From: Nanobdellota archaeon
Lineage (GTDB): Archaea > Nanobdellota > Nanobdellia > Parvarchaeales > Parvarchaeaceae
Length of the DNA stretch: 64,000 nt
Reading direction: 5' to 3'
Assembly: GCA_021807125.1 (NCBI GenBank)
Contig: JAKAPK010000001.1
Location: forward strand, 118,354 to 182,353
Shown here: positions 904 to 43,527 of the stretch, in pieces
Layout: the number at the start of each line of letters is the position of its first letter
Position numbering within the stretch: position 1 is the first letter of the stretch
Made by a program: the position numbers and the translations under genes
The notes under the pieces: model-generated
What the model saw: only the letters and a program-made list of their open reading frames with translations
What the model was told of the DNA's origin: nothing
Database searches by the model: none

Positions 904-1988
904 ACTTTCTTTTCCGGAGACTTAGGGATGTATTTCTCCTGTTCTTGTGAAGGAGGTCTTAGGTCCTTGTCTATAATCGGTTTCGGAAGCCCCTTCTTTT
1001 CTCTTAGACCATCGATGGTTTTAAGTATTTTATCCACGATTTCCTTTGCTTTTAAGTATTGTTTTGAATATTCGTCACCATTTATGCTCTTAACCTCGCC
1101 ATGCTCTATCCTTTTGAACCATTTCACAACGTCATCCAATTTATCCACATCTTCCTTTGAGAGTAACTTCGTTTTCTCAACAGCAATAGCCATTAGATTC
1201 TTTGATACTTCTTTAGGAACCGGAGGCAAGTAGCCTTCTTCCATTAGGAGCGCCTGTCCGGCAGCAACGACGGACCTAAACAGGTCTTCACTGAGCTTCT
1301 TTGAAAGTGTGTCGTCCGCCCATAAAAGGAGTGCCTCTGCGTTGGCTATGTTTGCATCTATTGATTCCCTCGTAGGTATTATGTTGCCGTTCCTGTATAT
1401 CAGTTGTATAGGCACGAAAAAGCCAGTATCATACACAGCTACACCAGTCTGCAAGAGCGTCATTATTACCGGATCCGGACGTACTATAGCGCTCCAGAAT
1501 TCAGATAGAGGATAAGCTTGTGCGTGTATTTTTTCCGAGAATCCCCGTGCTATCTCGGCCATTTTAGCGAATAATCTTTCTTTTAGCTGTTCAAGTGTGA
1601 ATTTCTGTATATCAGTATCATCAACGATAAATGCTACGTCTATATCAGAAGTGCTTGTGACGCCAGTCTTTGTCTTCGAACTACCGAATACTATTATCGA
1701 CTTTATATATTTTCTAAAAAGACTAAGCACTCTTAGAAAATAAGCCCTTAGTGCATTAGCATCCTTTGCGCTAAGCAGTTTGTTCAGCACATCTAAAGAC
1801 AGTCCTGCAAGCTGACCCGGTGGCTCGGCATGCTCTTTGCCCTCTTCACCAATTTCAAGCCCGACAAACGACGCAAGGTAGTCTATCCTTTCGTCAACTT
1901 CATCCATCTTCGATGAGAGAAGATCTATGTTCGAAAAAAGCTTGTTCAAAGCGCTTTCCGATGGGTCATTATTTTCAGTCTGATGCAT
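900..1988 (-). CDS. MNT-type nucleotidyltransferase fused to HEPN-like helical C-terminus
   Basis: 'IIVFGSSKTKTGVTSTSDIDVAFIV' = GSx(n)SDID nucleotidyltransferase motif. Start moved from 2111 to ATG at 1988 because of a strong SD (GGAGGTAA) just upstream and because the longer form would overlap the divergent gene. Confidence 0.75.
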   Translation of the reverse strand: MHQTENNDPSESALNKLFSNIDLLSSKMDEVDERIDYLASFVGLEIGEEGKEHAEPPGQLAGLSLDVLNKLLSAKDANALRAYFLRVLSLFRKYIKSIIVFGSSKTKTGVTSTSDIDVAFIVDDTDIQKFTLEQLKERLFAKMAEIARGFSEKIHAQAYPLSEFWSAIVRPDPVIMTLLQTGVAVYDTGFFVPIQLIYRNGNIIPTRESIDANIANAEALLLWADDTLSKKLSEDLFRSVVAAGQALLMEEGYLPPVPKEVSKNLMAIAVEKTKLLSKEDVDKLDDVVKWFKRIEHGEVKSINGDEYSKQYLKAKEIVDKILKTIDGLREKKGLPKPIIDKDLRPPSQEQEKYIPKSPEKKV

Positions 1989-2066
1989 ATTTACCTCCGA
2001 TAATTCTAACAGATTAATCTTATATATTTCTTCCTGTTTATATACATTTATTGCCAAATAGGTTTT

Positions 2067-3827
2067 ATGAGCAAACAAGCACCGCTGCCAATAACATTGA
2101 ACCCCTCTCAACTGCAGGAAGTGAGAAAACGAGTTACTAAGATGGGCGCAGGAGAACTCTCCGCGTTTATAAAGGAACTAAAATTAAGAGCAAGTGGCCT
2201 TAACACACACTACGGTGGACCAGTAAACATGAGATACATAAACGATGAGGAGATACCGGATGTAGGCCTTTTGGGGAAGCCAGATGGATTTGCCGTGTCT
2301 AAAGATATAAAAAAGAGATACGAATTTCAGACGGAATATTATTCGCTTTCACAGCAGTTCGCGTTCTTTGGTTATTCGAGGATGAAAGAGATTGAGTCTA
2401 TCGATCCATCGGCCATGTCACAGATAATGTCCCTCGTTTTCGAAAAAAGAAAGATTTTCGAAGATAGGGTAATGCAGTTGATGGGCAGTATAAATCAGGT
2501 GGTTCAATCAGTATTGAGAATACTGTACGAATTAAAGGAATTGGACAGGAACGTAATATTCTATGAGCAACTTAAATCCAAGGACCCTAAGACCATAGAA
2601 AATGCAGAGATGTCAATAAAGAGAATATTCGTAGATACAGTCGATTCTAGGAAAGGAGGGGCCAGTATGCTTTCTCTTGTAAGGGCTGCCAGTCAATCAG
2701 GCGGCGGAGGCCCCGGTTTCACTACTTTAGTCGCAGCGTTCTACTCACCAAGCATCAAGTCTGCAAAGGACGTGGATAAATTGAGTCTTAATGAGCAGGT
2801 AAAGAACATACTAAAACCAAGGGTAGAAGAATATATCCAGTGGAAGAGCATAAACGAGACGGACCTTAGAAACAGAAAATCCATGCTTTTGCAGTATCTT
2901 ACCAGTCAGGTAGGTTCGTATAAGATGTATGTACAATGGGCATCCCAGTACTTGAACATATTGAAACGAATAAACCAGGCCCCCCCACAGTCTGCTGGAA
3001 AATATATGTCATCCCTTAAGACCCCCGACATATTCAATACTGCTGTGTTTTCTTTGAATATGATGGGCTTTAAAGAGATATTTATGGGAGAGTACGACAT
3101 AGAATGGTCAAGACCTTTTGGAAGTAAAGGAATACAGCTGCCGGAATCGGCGTCTCTTAAGACAAACAGCGGCGATCTTATGACGCGTGGCGGCAGGGAA
3201 ACCCAGAGAAGATTCATATATGACAAGGTAAAAAAATACGGTCCTATAGTCATGAGCGCGATAGAGGCCGAATTTTCATTTAGAGAAAAACCAATACTTT
3301 CGGAAGATGTCCCGCAACAGCCACTGCAGTATGAGGGAACTCTTGATCTGAAACTTACTCCCTACTGTTTTACGTTGGAGGAATGGTACCTTTTCAAAGC
3401 AGCTCTTGAAGAACAGATAAGGAAGACCGTTTTTGCAGACATGGACCAGGTACTAACATCTTCGCTGGAAAGCATGAAATCCGATCTTGACAAATACCTG
3501 GAAGAAGCCTCAAAGTTAAAGTTGAAGGAGGACAAACAGAAAAAACCGAACGAATTCGCACTTATGGACATATTCCAGTCCTTTAAGGAGGATTTCCTTG
3601 GAGTAACTAAGTATATACCTACTAATTTTAAATCGGAATCCCCGGAGAATCCTGAGTTTTATACACTTTATACTATGATAGTGAACAAAAGACAAAGTTT
3701 TCTTAAGATGAAGGATGCGTTAAAACTTGGTTTGTTTACGTCCATTAGCGACTCGTCACTTATATATGAGGAATTCAAGAGAAGGGTAAAGCTTTTGAAC
3801 CCTCTTTCCAAGTTCGATATCTTTTGA
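2067..3827 (+). CDS. Conserved-looking hypothetical protein (586 aa), divergent from the MNT-HEPN gene
   Basis: Long ORF with TATA-like TTTATATA 30 nt upstream of ATG; no recognised domain. Confidence 0.75.
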   Translation: MSKQAPLPITLNPSQLQEVRKRVTKMGAGELSAFIKELKLRASGLNTHYGGPVNMRYINDEEIPDVGLLGKPDGFAVSKDIKKRYEFQTEYYSLSQQFAFFGYSRMKEIESIDPSAMSQIMSLVFEKRKIFEDRVMQLMGSINQVVQSVLRILYELKELDRNVIFYEQLKSKDPKTIENAEMSIKRIFVDTVDSRKGGASMLSLVRAASQSGGGGPGFTTLVAAFYSPSIKSAKDVDKLSLNEQVKNILKPRVEEYIQWKSINETDLRNRKSMLLQYLTSQVGSYKMYVQWASQYLNILKRINQAPPQSAGKYMSSLKTPDIFNTAVFSLNMMGFKEIFMGEYDIEWSRPFGSKGIQLPESASLKTNSGDLMTRGGRETQRRFIYDKVKKYGPIVMSAIEAEFSFREKPILSEDVPQQPLQYEGTLDLKLTPYCFTLEEWYLFKAALEEQIRKTVFADMDQVLTSSLESMKSDLDKYLEEASKLKLKEDKQKKPNEFALMDIFQSFKEDFLGVTKYIPTNFKSESPENPEFYTLYTMIVNKRQSFLKMKDALKLGLFTSISDSSLIYEEFKRRVKLLNPLSKFDIF

Positions 3828-5357
3828 TTAAGTGAACGGTTTTAAAGTTCCGTCGTTTTTTATTAGCGAAGGGTTTTCCTTTATTTTTTGGACTATATTT
3901 TTCATTCTTTTCTCCTTTCTTTTTGATATCCAGTAATACCCTTCATCGTTCGTATCATTAGTTATAAGAACGTATACTCTACCCACATTGAAGCGCCCTA
4001 CGCGTCCACGTCTCTGTATACTGCGTATTCCACTCGGTATTGTCTCATAAAAGACCGCAAGATCTACACCCTTTATAGAGATGCCCTCTTCGCTTACACT
4101 GGTGGATATCAGCGCATTGTAGACTCCTGCCTCGAAGTCCCTTACCGTAGCTATTTGCTCCTTTTGTGTCAGTCCTTTCTTTCCCTGACCTATGAATTTT
4201 ACCGCATGCACATTCGGACATGAACCAAGCATCTTTTCTATCACATCGGCCGTGTCTCTATACTGTGTGAACACTATAGCGCGTTCTGAGCCCTTTAGTT
4301 GGCTTTCAAGTATATTCTTCAGAAGCGAAAGTTTAGGATGTTCGATTCCATCACTGAGCAGGCTCTTGCTTTTTTCGTATAATTGTATTATTTCCGGATC
4401 CTTTCCGATTTCTTTGTCGGTCTTTGACTTACCCTGCTTTATTATCTTCTCTAAAAACGCTTCGAATGCACGCAAGCTTTGCGTCGAGATCAAGTTTATT
4501 GCATGATAGATTTTTAGTATCTTCGCTGTCGCTATTATACCTCTTATCGTGTAGAACGAGCGCCCGCCCCTTATCATCTGCCCCTGCAATTTTTTCTGCA
4601 AAAGCAGTACGCTCATACGGTTTATACGGCTGTTAAGCGTGTCCTTGAAGAATCCGCTCTGTTTTAGTGAGCTTATATATGAATCTAGCACTTTCTTTGC
4701 CGATTCAGTCAGTGCTCTCAACTCTGGTTGTAAATCGACTCTAAGCTCTTCCACGAGCTTCGCCTTTATGTAAGGCTTAACGTCCGGATCATCCTCTCCG
4801 CGGATTTCAACGTTTGAGATATTCAGGTTCCTGCATATCGTTATTATTTTGTCGTGATCTGAAGCCGGAGAAGCCGTGAGCGCTATTATATTAGGGTGTT
4901 TCGACGTGTGTAAAAAAGAATCAGCTATCCTTACATAGGAATAATTACCTATCGCATGGTGCGCTTCGTCTACGATCAATATGCTGAAATCCTCCAGATT
5001 TAGAACCTCATTTTTCAAATCGTTTTCGATTGTCTGTGGCGTAGCAAACACCACTCGGCTTTCATCGTACACTTTCTTTCTTTTCTCCTTTGATACGGAT
5101 CCGCTCACGATTCCAAGAGGCAGGGACACAAATTCATCGAAAGTCCTGAAATGTTGGTTTATCAGCGGTTTCGTCGGCGCGACGAACAGAGCCTTAGAAT
5201 CAGGATATTCGGATAGCCTGTAGTCTATGAGCATTATGCTTATCATCGTTTTACCGAGGCCCGTCGGTATTACAATCAAACTGTTTTTATCCTTTGCACT
5301 GTCAACGATGCTGAGCTGATATTTTCTCCTTTCAAGATCTCTTTTTATAAAATTCAT
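3828..5357 (-). CDS. Hef/ERCC4-like superfamily 2 helicase (helicase part only)
   Basis: Walker A 'IPTGLGKT', 'VDEAHHAIG', 'ALTASPA', C-terminal 'SEEGISIKGVDLAVFYETIPSGIRSIQRRGRVGR'. Confidence 0.88.
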   Translation of the reverse strand: MNFIKRDLERRKYQLSIVDSAKDKNSLIVIPTGLGKTMISIMLIDYRLSEYPDSKALFVAPTKPLINQHFRTFDEFVSLPLGIVSGSVSKEKRKKVYDESRVVFATPQTIENDLKNEVLNLEDFSILIVDEAHHAIGNYSYVRIADSFLHTSKHPNIIALTASPASDHDKIITICRNLNISNVEIRGEDDPDVKPYIKAKLVEELRVDLQPELRALTESAKKVLDSYISSLKQSGFFKDTLNSRINRMSVLLLQKKLQGQMIRGGRSFYTIRGIIATAKILKIYHAINLISTQSLRAFEAFLEKIIKQGKSKTDKEIGKDPEIIQLYEKSKSLLSDGIEHPKLSLLKNILESQLKGSERAIVFTQYRDTADVIEKMLGSCPNVHAVKFIGQGKKGLTQKEQIATVRDFEAGVYNALISTSVSEEGISIKGVDLAVFYETIPSGIRSIQRRGRVGRFNVGRVYVLITNDTNDEGYYWISKRKEKRMKNIVQKIKENPSLIKNDGTLKPFT

Positions 5358-5932
5358 ACGAACGTTGCTTTTCCGCCCTTTACTAGTATATCAGCAACGT
5401 CCTTGTCTATTTCTATTACATTCGGAAAAGAAAAAGGACCATATGATTTGTTATTTTTCCATATGAATTTCGGCACATCGGACATTATCTTTATTACTGC
5501 CTTTTCGCTTCCGTCATCCTCTGAATCGCTTTTTTGTACCGCCTTAGGTTCAGCTTCCTTTATCTCACGTATTACCTTGCCCTTATACGAATCGATTACT
5601 TCCTTTAATTTATCAAATAGGACCACTTCTTGTGACAGCATGTTCTGTCGCGTCTTTGGATCCAGTCCGCGTCCCTCTATCGCTATTTGCGTCAGCTTGT
5701 TTATGCGTCGATTTATTATTTTGTTCAATTCCTCTAAAGCGTTCTTTATTTTCGTGGATATTTCGGAAGCCCGATTTTCATCGTTCGATTTTTTGCACTC
5801 TTCGAGCGCTTGCTTGTTTATTGCGATGTATTCTTTCATCTCATCCAAAGTCTTGTCACTAAACGGAGTAAGTTCACCTCTGCTTTCATCTTCAGCTCTT
5901 CTTAATCTTATGAATTCGCTGTAAGTTATCAT
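5354..5932 (-). CDS. Archaeal GINS complex subunit (GINS51/Gins15-like)
   Basis: C-terminal B-domain 'VPKFIWKNNKSYGPFSFPNVIEIDKDVADILVKGGKATFV'; helical A domain; ATGA overlap with helicase. Confidence 0.75.
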   Translation of the reverse strand: MITYSEFIRLRRAEDESRGELTPFSDKTLDEMKEYIAINKQALEECKKSNDENRASEISTKIKNALEELNKIINRRINKLTQIAIEGRGLDPKTRQNMLSQEVVLFDKLKEVIDSYKGKVIREIKEAEPKAVQKSDSEDDGSEKAVIKIMSDVPKFIWKNNKSYGPFSFPNVIEIDKDVADILVKGGKATFV

Positions 5933-5966
5933 AGATAATCTCTATATCAATCAAGATATTAACCTT

Positions 5967-6146
5967 TTACACCCCCGCACCAGGGCCGAAAATTCCCTTG
6001 CTAAGTGCAGAGAAAAAGTTAGCAACTGGAGCGACTATAGATGTTGGACCGACAAATATTAAATATGCTATCACTACTATCAATGCGAGAATCAGAAGTA
6101 TTATATAGAATATTAAGGTCTCACTCATGCCTTTTTTATTTTTCAT
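5967..6146 (-). CDS. Tiny single-TM protein with pilin-like (class III signal) N-terminus
   Basis: MKNKKGMSETLIFYIILLILALIVVIAYLIFVGPTSIVAPVANFFSALSKGIFGPGAGV; start chosen at 6146. Confidence 0.6.
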   Translation of the reverse strand: MKNKKGMSETLIFYIILLILALIVVIAYLIFVGPTSIVAPVANFFSALSKGIFGPGAGV

Positions 6147-30852: not shown

Positions 30853-31410
30853 ATGTCAATACTCGGGATGGGAAAACGCGGACAGATATTCACTTTTGAT
30901 TTAATGGTCGCGATATTTGTGTTCTTGTTAATATTCACCTCAATGATACTGTTTATATACTCCGTAGTGGATTCAAGCAACCCATATTCTGCATATTCGA
31001 TTATAACGCTGTCAAACTATGTCAATAATCTTGCTACACAAGGCATAAACACAATCGTCGGCTCCCAAGGATACCCCCAGAATTGGACAAGCGTAGCGTG
31101 CGCATCGATATCCAGACTGGGAATAATGTACAATTATTATGAGGCATCGCCGCAAAAGCTATACAATTTAACTACGCTTCCTTTGGGCTGCATGTCACAG
31201 CTGCTCAGATCTGGCAGTTCCTTCAATATTACGGCGTCATACCTAAATTATTCAACGATAAAGATAACAGAGGGGCTTTCTACACGTGCAATTTCAGTTG
31301 GATTCCAACCGCCTAAGAATCCGAGCTATCTCGTTTCATTACAGAGATACGTAATACTATATCCCGGAAATTCGATAATACGCATAACCTACAAGGTGTG
31401 GTTAACATGA
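30853..31410 (+). CDS. Pilin-like secreted protein
   Basis: 'MGKRGQIFTFDLMVAIFVFLLIFTSMILFIYSVV'; true start possibly 30868. Confidence 0.65.
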   Translation: MSILGMGKRGQIFTFDLMVAIFVFLLIFTSMILFIYSVVDSSNPYSAYSIITLSNYVNNLATQGINTIVGSQGYPQNWTSVACASISRLGIMYNYYEASPQKLYNLTTLPLGCMSQLLRSGSSFNITASYLNYSTIKITEGLSTRAISVGFQPPKNPSYLVSLQRYVILYPGNSIIRITYKVWLT

Positions 31411-32132
31411 GAAAAGGCCAGATATTCACAATAGATACCATAGTTGGCATAATAATAGTAATATCGGTGCTTTCGACTGCGTACGGGTTCTCCTCATATT
31501 ATTCTACACTGAACGCGCTTTCTTCATCAAACAATAATATTGTAGCGACGGTTTCTTCGGCCGCATTTGCATTTATTTCGCTAAATAAGACAACTGCGAT
31601 GCTCGATAATTTTCAGAATGGGGCGATAACCAGTGCGGAATTTTCATCTTATGTCTCGTCTCATCTTGGTAGAGAGCTTACTCTTCCTTATTATGTTTTC
31701 GTCAATACAAAAGAGAACTATTCTAACGGCAGCTCGTATCTTGTTGATACATTCAATAATAGCTATGCGAATTTCAATAGTCAAAACAGTTTCATATCGA
31801 TACCAGAGGTCGTTTTGGTATCAAATTTTAGTAGCCTATGCGGCAATACCTGTAGCACGCAGTTCTCCGCAGGCAGTATCTTTCCTACACAGTCTACAGA
31901 GGTGGCGGCCACCAACTGTACGGTATTTAACAATGTAGGGGTGCATGTAACGGGTTGGACCGTCCGGAACAATACTCCGGCAGGAAGCTGTACGATAACC
32001 GCAGGAACTTATTCTTCGGCGTTGCCGAATAATTATCTTATAAAGGCATATACGTCCGCAGGCTCATTCTTGGGTAACACTACTCTGCACATCTTAGGCC
32101 TCGACGTGGTGTCCATCGAGGCCCAAAGCTAG
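31398..32132 (+). CDS. Pilin-like secreted protein, paralogous N-terminus
   Basis: 'MRKGQIFTIDTIVGIIIVISVLSTAYGF'; overlaps previous gene. Confidence 0.65.
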   Translation: MVNMRKGQIFTIDTIVGIIIVISVLSTAYGFSSYYSTLNALSSSNNNIVATVSSAAFAFISLNKTTAMLDNFQNGAITSAEFSSYVSSHLGRELTLPYYVFVNTKENYSNGSSYLVDTFNNSYANFNSQNSFISIPEVVLVSNFSSLCGNTCSTQFSAGSIFPTQSTEVAATNCTVFNNVGVHVTGWTVRNNTPAGSCTITAGTYSSALPNNYLIKAYTSAGSFLGNTTLHILGLDVVSIEAQS

Positions 32133-39473: not shown

Positions 39474-39833
39474 ATGTTCAATAAAAGAGCACAAGGATTG
39501 CCGATTAACACAATAATATTGATAGCAGTCGGATTGCTAATATTGGTTCTTTTTATAGTATTTCTTCTTGGAGGTTTTGGCAGCTTGGGTGGAGCAAAAT
39601 CAAATCCTTATGCATCCTTTAGCTCGTCATGTCAAAGCGCTTGTTCTACAGATCAACTTAGTGGAGGTTCAGGCGAGCCAGCTAGTTTTTGTTCATTGAA
39701 TACTACGATAAATGGCGCAACAACCTATTGTGATAGCCCTTCCATGTCAACTTATCCTGGCGGCCATTGTACTGTTGGTTCCACGACTTATGGTGGTGCT
39801 TCAGGTCAGACCACGTGTACGGGCCATCCGTAA
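39474..39833 (+). CDS. Pilin-like small secreted protein with Cys/Ser/Gly-rich ectodomain
   Basis: 'MFNKRAQGLPINTIILIAVGLLILVLFIVFLLGGFGSLGG'; TTTAAATA 29 nt upstream. Confidence 0.65.
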   Translation: MFNKRAQGLPINTIILIAVGLLILVLFIVFLLGGFGSLGGAKSNPYASFSSSCQSACSTDQLSGGSGEPASFCSLNTTINGATTYCDSPSMSTYPGGHCTVGSTTYGGASGQTTCTGHP

Positions 39834-39908
39834 ATAATTTTTGTTGCAGACAGCCAAATTAAGCTTTAATAAGAAGTGTTTATTAGTCTTTAATAGGAAT
39901 TTAAGAAT

Positions 39909-40523
39909 ATGCTAAACAGAATAGGTGCTGCGGGGGCAGTTGTAAGCGTCGTCGGAATGACGCTTCTTGCGATAGCTGTAATGTATCTGTTTTACACGCA
40001 CACTTTCATAGTGAATCTATGCCCTACAGGGAAAAATCTTATTGATACGGCAATCGGTCCGATGTGTTATCCCAGTCTCAATAATACGATAATAGTGGAT
40101 GGAAAACCGTATTACAACAATGTCACGGTAGTGAACGGCAGCACGCAGATAAACTTTGAAGTTGTTGGTAAAGAGCCCCTCCTATCAATATGGAATCAGA
40201 ACATAAGTGAGCCGCCGAAGTCATATATTTTCCTTACGATACCCGATACTTTTAGCGTGCACATGCAGTACGTCTCAAACGTAACCACAGATATAATAAT
40301 TATGGACAATAAAAATTATATTGCTTGGGCGAACAAACAGCCGTACACCGCTGTCGCGACTTACACAGGAACTGGCATATCCTTCTGGTTCAACGAAAGT
40401 GACGGCTGTGCAGGTTATGTCGCTGTAATAACGCAGCCGAATAATGGCGCTTTTTCATTGACCCCGCACGAGACGGCCTTGTACGCTCCAAGTAACCATT
40501 CCACAGGCGCATGTGTTCCTTGA
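39909..40523 (+). CDS. Membrane-anchored secreted protein (204 aa)
   Basis: 'MLNRIGAAGAVVSVVGMTLLAIAVMYLFYTHTF' then NxT/S-rich ectodomain. Confidence 0.65.
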   Translation: MLNRIGAAGAVVSVVGMTLLAIAVMYLFYTHTFIVNLCPTGKNLIDTAIGPMCYPSLNNTIIVDGKPYYNNVTVVNGSTQINFEVVGKEPLLSIWNQNISEPPKSYIFLTIPDTFSVHMQYVSNVTTDIIIMDNKNYIAWANKQPYTAVATYTGTGISFWFNESDGCAGYVAVITQPNNGAFSLTPHETALYAPSNHSTGACVP

Positions 40524-40586: not shown

Positions 40587-41201
40587 ATGGATTTAAACGC
40601 GTTTGAAGCAGTATCGGCATTAAAAAAATTTTATTCTGATGAAGAAATGTCACCTAAATTAACAAAGCTTTTCGTATCAGGCACTAAAGTAGGCGTTTCT
40701 TTGGAAAATCAGAATGGCGTTCTAAACCTGAAAGCAGTCCACCCGCTTAGACTTTACGCGAGAGACGTCTATAATATACTCCTTAGGCTGTACTTCGTAC
40801 GAAGCACGAATCTTACCATAAATTTCCAGGACAACGGAAAACAGAAGAGCGTTTCCAAGACTTTTGGCCCGGAAGAGGATATAGACGAAATAATAAATGA
40901 TCTTCTCGGTCTGCCCCACGAAAGTATAACCGATGTCGTTATAGAAACCGAATATTTCACGCTCAGGGAAACACAAAACGTAAGCGACAACATAAACGTA
41001 GTATTAAAGAAGGAATCACCCAAGATGCTTTTTAAGAGTCTTGTGAATTATCTTTTCCCGTTTGTAAACATGACAGTTGAAAACTCGGCAAAAGAAGACC
41101 TGTCTTTCTTAAAGAAGGACGATGAAGTCACAGTAGAACTTGATATAAATGTAGACGGTACTCCCCTTGGAATAAAATCAAAGAAAGTAAGGCTCGTCTG
41201 A
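40587..41201 (+). CDS. Hypothetical protein, first gene of the KaiC/GTPase/Roadblock operon
   Basis: ORF with leaderless-type promoter (TTTAAATA 29 nt upstream), 5-nt gap to next gene. Confidence 0.7.
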   Translation: MDLNAFEAVSALKKFYSDEEMSPKLTKLFVSGTKVGVSLENQNGVLNLKAVHPLRLYARDVYNILLRLYFVRSTNLTINFQDNGKQKSVSKTFGPEEDIDEIINDLLGLPHESITDVVIETEYFTLRETQNVSDNINVVLKKESPKMLFKSLVNYLFPFVNMTVENSAKEDLSFLKKDDEVTVELDINVDGTPLGIKSKKVRLV

Positions 41202-41206
41202 AATTT

Positions 41207-41875
41207 ATGGGGTTTTTGTCCACAGGTTTTAAATCTTTCGATACTAAGACACAGGGTCTAGAGACTAAGAGCACGTACTTGATAGTGGGCTCAAAAGATA
41301 GCGGAAAAGAAATGTTCGTATACAAGCTAGTTTCATCGCTCTTGGCGAATAAAGCGGACGTAGTGTATGTTTTAACCCGAAAAAGTTCGACTGATCTCGT
41401 TACAGACATTAATAAAACAGGATTCAATCTTGGCCAGTATCTTGGTGAATCGTTCAAAGTCTTGGACGATTTCAGCAGGACAATATCACCGACTATGGTA
41501 GACAATGCCTTCACCAAAGTATTGAATGGACCGGTGGACCTTACCGGACTTAACGTTGCGGTGTCTTCCGTAAGCAACGAATTCTTAAGGAATGGAGGGG
41601 AAGTAGTCGACGTATTCGATTCTCTGTCACAACTGCTGATATATAATAACAGCCCTACGCTTTTCAGATTCCTTCAGTTTGTCTGTGGAAAATCAAAATT
41701 AAGCGGTGTGACTTCGATTTTTCTTTTGGACGAAGAGATGCACACTCCAGAAATAAACGAGACTATACGCTCTCTTATCGACGTAGTGATCTCACTGAAG
41801 CTTGAGAACGGCAAACGGTATTTTACGATGTCCGGCGGGCAGAAAGAGGTGCTAGATTGGAGTCTGCTTGAGTGA
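41207..41875 (+). CDS. KaiC/RecA-superfamily-like protein with altered Walker A
   Basis: 'TGFKSFDTKTQGLETKSTYLIVGSKDSGKEMFVYKLVSSLL' (GxxxxGKE), 'VVDVFDSLSQLLIYNN' Walker B-like. Confidence 0.65.
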   Translation: MGFLSTGFKSFDTKTQGLETKSTYLIVGSKDSGKEMFVYKLVSSLLANKADVVYVLTRKSSTDLVTDINKTGFNLGQYLGESFKVLDDFSRTISPTMVDNAFTKVLNGPVDLTGLNVAVSSVSNEFLRNGGEVVDVFDSLSQLLIYNNSPTLFRFLQFVCGKSKLSGVTSIFLLDEEMHTPEINETIRSLIDVVISLKLENGKRYFTMSGGQKEVLDWSLLE

Positions 41876-41917
41876 TATGGAAGTTACAGTTATAAACAGA
41901 AAGGTGTTAATTTAAAT

Positions 41918-43117
41918 ATGAGTGATCCTTTTTTTGGTGTGGGCAAACTTGACGGTGATCTGGATGGCTTTCCACCTCAAAAGACCGTAGTCATAAACGC
42001 GTCTCCGGACGTAGGCAACGAAGTGTTCGGTTACCAGATATCTCATGCAAACTTGTCGAACGACAAGAAAGTGCTTCTATTCTTAAACAGGATGTCCCCT
42101 GCTGCGTATCTAGCGGAAATGAAAGAATACAACCTCCCTGCAAATGACAACTTGAAGATAATAGACGCATACAGCAACATAACGGGGATAAAATCTCAAC
42201 CCACTAAAAACATCGTAGCCGTAGATAACCCTTACAATAAAGAGGAAATCTCAAAAAAATTGAGCGCCGAATTGGATGCCGGATACGACTTGGTGATATT
42301 CGACTCTCTTTCACTTTTTTCTGACATATTCGATATAGATTTCATGTTTTCCATAATAGACCTTGTCAACAGTAAAATAAAAGATTCAAAACTTTCATCA
42401 GTAATGTTATTCACCGACTGGGGTTACGGCGAAGACGTAGTTTCAAGACTTTACAAGAGTGCAAATGCGACGATAGAAGTCAAAGGCATAGAGAAAAGAG
42501 TCATATTCGGCCAGTACTTTGCCGTTGTAAAATGCGATTGGATAGAAAAAAGTATGCCTAGGACTGCACTTTTTAAAGCAGTTAAGCCGGGCGGAATAAA
42601 AATATACATACCGAAAATACTTGTTACCGGACCAACGGATGCTGGTAAGAGTTCATTCATACATAGTGCTTCGAAAACGGCCGTTAGCGTCGATAAGCTC
42701 GGCGGTACTATCGCTTTAGACCATGGACATATAGATTTTGACGGATACTCTGCCGATCTTTTCGGGACTCCTGGACAGGAGAGATTTGACCCGCTTCTTG
42801 AACTACTCGGCGGAGAAGCAATAGGTGTCTTGCTAGTCGTTGACTCGACTAAACCGGATCAATTCCCCAGAGCATTAGAAATGCTGCGAAAAACAGAGAC
42901 TTTCGGACTGCCGATAGTCGTAGTCGCAAACAAAGCGGATTTGAATGGCGCTTTGGAAACAGACGACATAAGAAAAAGATTGCATTTAGAGGACAGCGTT
43001 CCAGTCATAAAAACCGTTGCGGAGGATCCTTCGAGCATAGATCCAAACCAACCGACAAAATTGAAGAGCGAAGGGGTAGACAGTGCACTCAGATCGCTTT
43101 TTAGTCAATTAACTTAA
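41918..43117 (+). CDS. Fusion: degenerate KaiC-like domain + Ras-like/MglA/CvnD-type small GTPase
   Basis: N-term 'VINASPDVGNEVFGYQISHANL...YDLVIFDSLSLFSDIF'; C-term G1 'GPTDAGKSSF', G3 'DLFGTPGQERFDPLLELL', G4 'ANKADL'. Confidence 0.8.
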   Translation: MSDPFFGVGKLDGDLDGFPPQKTVVINASPDVGNEVFGYQISHANLSNDKKVLLFLNRMSPAAYLAEMKEYNLPANDNLKIIDAYSNITGIKSQPTKNIVAVDNPYNKEEISKKLSAELDAGYDLVIFDSLSLFSDIFDIDFMFSIIDLVNSKIKDSKLSSVMLFTDWGYGEDVVSRLYKSANATIEVKGIEKRVIFGQYFAVVKCDWIEKSMPRTALFKAVKPGGIKIYIPKILVTGPTDAGKSSFIHSASKTAVSVDKLGGTIALDHGHIDFDGYSADLFGTPGQERFDPLLELLGGEAIGVLLVVDSTKPDQFPRALEMLRKTETFGLPIVVVANKADLNGALETDDIRKRLHLEDSVPVIKTVAEDPSSIDPNQPTKLKSEGVDSALRSLFSQLT

Positions 43118-43123
43118 AAGATA

Positions 43124-43130
43124 TTTAAAT
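43124..43130 (+). promoter_or_regulatory. TATA-like element TTTAAAT, 29 nt from ATG 43153
   Basis: Suggests a dedicated internal promoter for the Roadblock gene. Confidence 0.5.
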
Positions 43131-43152
43131 GGTGAGGGATAAATAATCAATT

Positions 43153-43527
43153 ATGACGACAAAATCCGAACTTATAAAGCAGGTCCTAGATCATCTCAAT
43201 AATGTCGGAGGTATAAGAGCTTCTGCGGTAATTTCAGCGGATGGCCTTCCAATGGTCTCATCTATGCCGGAAGATGTTAACCCAAACACGTTTGCAGCTA
43301 TGTTAGCTTCCATGGTAGGATCTGCAGAGACCGCGCTTAAATCGATAGGTTCAAGAAACGTGCTCGAAAGGGTAGTCGCAGAATCAAAGGATGTTCGCGT
43401 TGTCGCGGTTCAAGCCGGACCGGATGCAATACTTACGATAATGATAGACCCAAGCACCAATTACGGTCTTATACTTCTTGAAGCAAAAAAAGCTTCTGAT
43501 GACATAGAAAAAGTGATGAAGCAATAA
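43153..43527 (+). CDS. Roadblock/LC7 domain protein
   Basis: 'VLDHLNNVGGIRASAVISADGLPMVSSMPEDVNPNTFAAMLASMVGSAETALKSIG'. Confidence 0.88.
   Translation: MTTKSELIKQVLDHLNNVGGIRASAVISADGLPMVSSMPEDVNPNTFAAMLASMVGSAETALKSIGSRNVLERVVAESKDVRVVAVQAGPDAILTIMIDPSTNYGLILLEAKKASDDIEKVMKQ

Follow-up and report, generated by a model that had tools for sequence, protein, structure and literature searches.

A conserved DPANN gene module built around a KaiC-like/MglA-type GTPase fusion, with a possible link to type IV pili

The DNA analyzed here (the window) is a stretch of 64,000 nucleotides on contig C7 of a Parvarchaeota-like DPANN assembly that comprises 652,905 bases in 7 contigs and is 79% complete; its close match in GenBank, Nanoarchaeota archaeon DBS2-5.bin35 (locus L002), belongs to the same species. 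Four genes on the + strand (positions 40587–43527) form a module encoding X204, an alpha/beta protein of 204 aa (40587–41201); KaiC1, which is KaiC-like and has a defective Walker A motif (41207–41875; PF06745, 1.7e-11; DUF7504, 1.5e-11); a 399-aa polypeptide composed of a KaiC-like domain and an MglA-type small GTPase (41918–43117); and a Roadblock/LC7 protein (43153–43527; PF03259, 1.2e-15, 57.5 bits against a cut-off of 23) that is a likely GTPase regulator. All four open reading frames lie at the coordinates and on the strand given for them in a preliminary description of this sequence. Directly upstream of the module, on the same strand, are the genes for sec119, a pilin-like protein with a class III signal peptide (39474–39833) which is kept in most Parvarchaeota loci, and sec204, a secreted protein held in the membrane by an N-terminal anchor (39909–40523) and present in 20 of 21 loci. 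In this upstream pair (39474–40523) the signal segment KAQGLPINTIILIA hardly varies, unlike the remainder.

The order X204-KaiC1-fusion-Roadblock on one strand is kept in all 21 Parvarchaeota loci, a set retrieved with one protein query, and X204 is present in each of them; such constancy goes far beyond what chance would give. The gene-neighborhood survey of DPANN genomes that had been advised shows conserved linkage, and the module is real and under-described. Beyond Parvarchaeota, profile searches with the GTPase domain located the fusion in four further DPANN families (G004, G160, G302 and, in diverged form, G282), and KaiC1 is kept in five families. Matches to the fusion in a class-wide sample of 378 genomes, which is also the source of the Roadblock and ATPase counts given below, sit in open frames of 350–434 aa, one 264-aa frame excepted (G324:C78), so that this sample contains no clear case of the GTPase as a stand-alone protein. 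An assembly artifact joining two genes is ruled out by the 21 Parvarchaeota loci together with the 350–434 aa frames of the four other families; the KaiC-like domain and the GTPase are thus truly fused in one polypeptide, as first read from the window. Outside DPANN, where plasmids were searched, the GTPase matched CvnD-like proteins, which were among the best of these matches, and Thermus/Deinococcus proteins, and the KaiC part was never covered. A plasmid search with KaiC1 matched a few haloarchaeal proteins, and a profile search of the PDB with the GTPase alignment gave no match at E ≤ 1e-12.

The N-terminal half of the fusion (41918–42592, + strand) falls below the Pfam KaiC cut-off in the window protein, and its orthologs in G004 and G160 match at 5e-25 and 2e-24, respectively. 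The structure search suggested for the region 41918–43117 gave an AlphaFold model with a mean pLDDT of 87 in which this half adopts a KaiC fold, matching the KaiC-like protein 2dr3 (TM 0.81) and FlaH/ArlH of S. acidocaldarius (4yds, TM 0.75). It is a paralog of KaiC1 (hhalign probability 98.5%, E 1.7e-15). Neither domain has an intact Walker A motif for ATP binding: KaiC1 carries GSKDSGKE at this position (41288–41311, + strand), with no Ser/Thr, and in the fusion the P-loop is lost and reads NASPDVGNE (41996–42022, + strand). The degeneracy of both domains, noticed from these two motifs, extends to every relative. In an alignment of 21 fusion sequences, including the diverged one of G282, the P-loop lysine is absent from all 21 (ASPxVGNE in Parvarchaeota, STPGVE-like or similar sequences elsewhere) and the Walker B aspartate is retained in nearly all. 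KaiC1 has no Ser/Thr after GK in Parvarchaeota, G320, G302, G160 and G004 (e.g., GNKESGKE, SAPLAGKK, SPPLEGKE), and in G282 the GK itself is missing. The dN/dS values of X204, KaiC1 and both halves of the fusion are about 0.01–0.06 where synonymous sites are unsaturated, which argues that the degenerate KaiC domains are not decaying. The KaiC-like domains of the module share with ArlH/FlaH and with archaeal KaiC-like proteins (PF06745, DUF7504) a common fold and, in the relatives G160 and G004, a location in pilus- or archaellum-type loci. Unlike those proteins, they are devoid of the P-loop lysine or of the following Ser/Thr, one of them is fused to a GTPase, and the KaiC-like sequence scores 21–47 bits with the NCBIfam ArlH/FlaH models, short of their cut-offs of 194–215.

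The C-terminal half of the fusion (42593–43114, + strand) contains a small GTPase at residues ~230–375 (small_GTP, 1.3e-16; Arf/Ras Pfam families, 1e-8 to 3e-7). The motifs G1 (GPTDAGKSS, 42629–42655), G3 (GTPGQE, 42764–42781) and G4 (NKAD, 42929–42940), all on the + strand, are intact as the preliminary description had it. G1–G4 are likewise intact in 20 of the 21 aligned sequences, GTPGQ occurs in G3 in 20 of 21, and the G2 threonine (LGGT, LGTT or LGET) is found in all but the G282 protein. MglA Groups 2–5, of which Group 4 is archaeal, are marked by GTPGQ in G3 together with a G2 threonine (PMC4316618); judged by these motifs, the fusion GTPase carries their signature and differs from MglA Group 1, which has an arginine in G2. 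The survey that defined these groups was limited to proteins of 150–240 aa and excluded those above 240 aa (PMC4316618), so that the fusion, which at 399 aa is outside the size range of the stand-alone family, would have fallen outside it. In the G282 relative (L140:1687-2736, - strand) the GTPase is degenerate, with GAPGDD in G3 and NR for NK; this is perhaps a pseudo-GTPase version, and with its GTPase damaged, GTP switching would not be universal among the fusions.

The Roadblock gene adjoins the fusion in 21/21 Parvarchaeota loci, as expected of the coupling between MglA-type GTPases and MglB/Roadblock genes. Among the 378 genomes, 31 encode the fusion and 32 the Roadblock protein, all 31 fusion genomes have Roadblock, a single genome (G287) has Roadblock without the fusion and 346 have neither (Fisher p ~1e-44, uncorrected for relatedness; the counts are not independent, since 28 of the 31 fusion genomes belong to one family). 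Counted by family in the same sample, the fusion occurs in four and Roadblock in five. No other evidence speaks as strongly for joint action of the two proteins as this co-occurrence (31/31), and with the sequence signature it upholds the suggestion that GTPase and Roadblock form a pair like MglA/MglB or CvnD/CvnB.

MglB regulates MglA, control of type IV pili by the two proteins is known from bacteria, and related GTPases and Roadblock proteins exist in archaea. The module shares an MglA-family small GTPase and a Roadblock protein with the MglA-MglB pair of Myxococcus and Thermus, which controls type IV pili and polarity; unlike in that pair, its GTPase makes up the C-terminal half of a chain that begins with a KaiC-like domain, and it is archaeal. 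A GTPase and a Roadblock protein are also common to the module and the Streptomyces conservon CvnA-D, and sensors are encoded nearby in the relatives of the module. The actinobacterial conservon consists of four genes, for a histidine kinase, a Roadblock protein, a DUF742 protein and a GTPase. The module, in contrast, has the KaiC fusion and KaiC1; neither a histidine kinase nor a DUF742 protein turned up among its genes or beside them, and its classification as a conservon was rejected.

X204 matches no Pfam or NCBIfam family above chance. Its AlphaFold model (pLDDT 88) consists of helix-strand-strand repeats and has no significant match in the PDB. A relationship to Roadblock was considered and rejected: Foldseek matches to Roadblock/Ragulator chains were weak (probability 0.2–0.35, E ~0.1, high rmsd) and profile comparison gave no support. 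A weak relative (E 7e-5) occurs in G167 (L037:9319-9954, - strand), where neither a GTPase fusion nor a KaiC gene adjoins it, and suggests that X204 is part of a wider, undescribed DPANN protein family; a match in G229 was judged to be due to chance.

The individual parts of the module are of known kinds, and the pairing of its GTPase with Roadblock resembles MglA-MglB. Text searches of the literature (KaiC with Roadblock or GTPase, archaeal Ras-like GTPases, Roadblock GTPases of DPANN) returned no description of the fusion, in agreement with its presentation as novel; the principal survey of KaiC proteins in archaea lay outside the coverage of these searches, and an earlier mention may exist. 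No account was found of KaiC joined covalently to a GTPase, of two KaiC paralogs that both have defective P-loops, or of X204, and all three are apparently undescribed. Archaeal type IV pilus loci repeatedly contain genes for Roadblock (arCOG02603) and KaiC (Makarova et al., 2016, PMC4858521); the module consists of the same kinds of genes, and in the accessible portion of that account the KaiC-GTPase fusion is not described.

The fusion is encoded together with a type IV pilus ATPase and platform genes in G160 and G004, and not in Parvarchaeota or G302. In G160, pilins, a 600-aa ATPase of the T2SSE/VirB11 type and two TadC proteins precede the fusion on one strand; after it come a small transmembrane protein, Roadblock, a metallo-beta-lactamase-fold protein and HAMP-like sensors with further Roadblock genes, and further along PAS-like, FIST and KaiC1-like proteins. 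The run of genes that includes the fusion on this contig (C25; L055/L117) has three Roadblock genes interleaved with HAMP-like sensors, a lipoprotein and the metallo-beta-lactamase-fold, PAS-like and FIST proteins, and looks like a multi-input sensory operon. G004, a single-contig genome, has pilins leading directly into the fusion, followed by a transmembrane protein and a Roadblock gene that is cut by the contig end; an ATPase and two TadC genes adjoin the pilins on the other strand, and at the opposite end of the contig are genes for a HAMP protein and for a protein resembling KaiC1. In G302 the order is fusion-Roadblock-PAS-KaiC1-like, with no pilus motor genes nearby, and the pilin is missing from G302.

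In the window, about 10 kb upstream of the module, lies a gene (30853–31410, + strand) for a pilin homologous to the one beside the fusion in G004 and G160, paired with a second pilin-like gene (31398–32132, + strand). The class III signal motifs of this pair are KRGQIFTFD and RKGQIFTID, and the pair is kept upstream of the module in 3 of 4 relatives checked. Orthologs of the 30853–31410 pilin occur in 27 of the 31 fusion genomes and in G160, and in 15 genomes they are on the contig of the fusion at a distance of 2.6–12.2 kb. A single nearby pilin is weak evidence, as proteins with class III signals are not uncommon within the window.

A related type IV pilus ATPase (E ≤ 1e-140) is present in 23/31 fusion genomes and 148/347 others (171/378 in total); exact co-occurrence with the fusion was looked for and not found, the ATPase family being far more widespread. 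The incomplete genome of the window is without this ATPase and a genome of the same species (G328) has it. G088, which is 98% complete, has no related ATPase but still encodes the pilin, along with a second type IV pilus-like ATPase that is divergent. Outside the window, on contig C7 of G000 (positions 1699-6008; L142), a divergent 746-aa type IV pilus-like ATPase is followed by a 696-aa protein with multiple transmembrane segments resembling a doubled TadC; the 746-aa ATPase is found in nearly all Parvarchaeota genomes checked and is separate from the two-TadC system.

The binding of ArlH, which belongs to the KaiC family, to the motor ATPase ArlI depends on nucleotide, and ArlH has been proposed as a switch (PMC8978795). 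MglA stimulates the formation of type IV pili in Myxococcus (PMC7519303). The reading preferred here, to which a probability of about 0.55 is assigned, is that the four genes encode an MglA/MglB-like switch tethered to a type IV pilus-type motor through an ArlH-like domain that does not bind ATP. From the genomic context we infer each of its elements: the GTPase activity, the action of Roadblock, the docking on an ATPase and the pilus as output. The fusion would be an MglA-type GTPase covalently joined to an ArlH/KaiC-like domain deprived of its ATP-binding P-loop, and Roadblock would probably regulate it (as a GAP or in a GEF-like manner, as MglB does for MglA). KaiC1 and the N-terminal domain of the fusion would most likely dock on an ATPase of the type IV pilus/archaellum type, as ArlH does on ArlI, and because the KaiC-like halves would sit there, the GTP state would set where or when pili are assembled. 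The HAMP, PAS and FIST sensors encoded near Roadblock in the relatives would supply the input. The KaiC-like domain may act as a scaffold, as the preliminary description supposed.

This reading is supported by the pilins and motor genes beside the fusion in G004 and G160, by the homologous pilin linked to it in Parvarchaeota, by the conservation of the fusion and its co-occurrence with Roadblock, by the MglA-type motifs and the KaiC/ArlH fold, and by the published work on ArlH, MglA and archaeal pilus loci cited above. It is weakened by several observations: in Parvarchaeota the module is not beside type IV pilus ATPase or TadC genes, the related ATPase occurs in only part of the fusion genomes and is missing from G088, G302 has the fusion with no pilus locus nearby and lacks the pilin, the GTPase of the G282 relative is damaged, and the model assigns no role to X204, whose fold matches none known. 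The lack of an adjoining ATPase in Parvarchaeota and G302 and its absence from G088 would suit a general, conservon-like membrane-signaling switch in which sensors reach the GTPase by way of Roadblock, the outputs are not pili (e.g., gene expression or secretion) and the pilus link is incidental; the sensors near Roadblock in G160, G302 and G004 and the CvnD-like plasmid matches of the GTPase point the same way. Such a switch is considered rather unlikely, however, as it leaves aside the linkage to pilus genes, the ArlH-like domain within the same chain as the GTPase and the missing histidine kinase and DUF742 partners.

The fusion might also be catalytically idle, with a GTPase that no longer cycles and with KaiC1, X204 and the fusion in a static complex. 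The defective P-loops of both KaiC domains and the degenerate GTPase of G282 are in line with this, but intact G1–G4 motifs in 20/21 sequences under strong purifying selection and the strict pairing with Roadblock make it improbable. More improbable still is a coupling of the module to FtsZ, with a role in cell division or polarity. The preliminary description had the module convergent with ftsZ, and in the window ftsZ is indeed convergent with the Roadblock gene; the same is seen in only 2 of the 21 loci, L016 and L002, the latter of the same species, and ftsZ was not seen beside the fusion in other families, so that convergence is not a conserved feature and the division link was dropped. 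Of the outputs put forward at first (polarity, surface structures or division), surface structures are favored, since the fusion lies in type IV pilus loci of other families and a homologous pilin is encoded near it in the window, and division is not.

If the four genes do encode a pilus switch, the GTP state would take over as the signal controlling the motor, because the ArlH-like part cannot bind ATP through a normal P-loop. More tentatively, a GTP cycle run by Roadblock and the sensors may replace the ATP binding or phosphorylation of ArlH in the control of the type IV pilus motor, possibly steering pili toward a host. A protein that unites the switch with an ArlH/KaiC-type motor-binding domain points straight to the output, and the question can be put to the test with only four small proteins. 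The module would be a case of ancient degenerate KaiC domains kept under strong purifying selection, and it would open a regulatory way in to the surface appendages by which episymbiotic DPANN archaea may reach their hosts.
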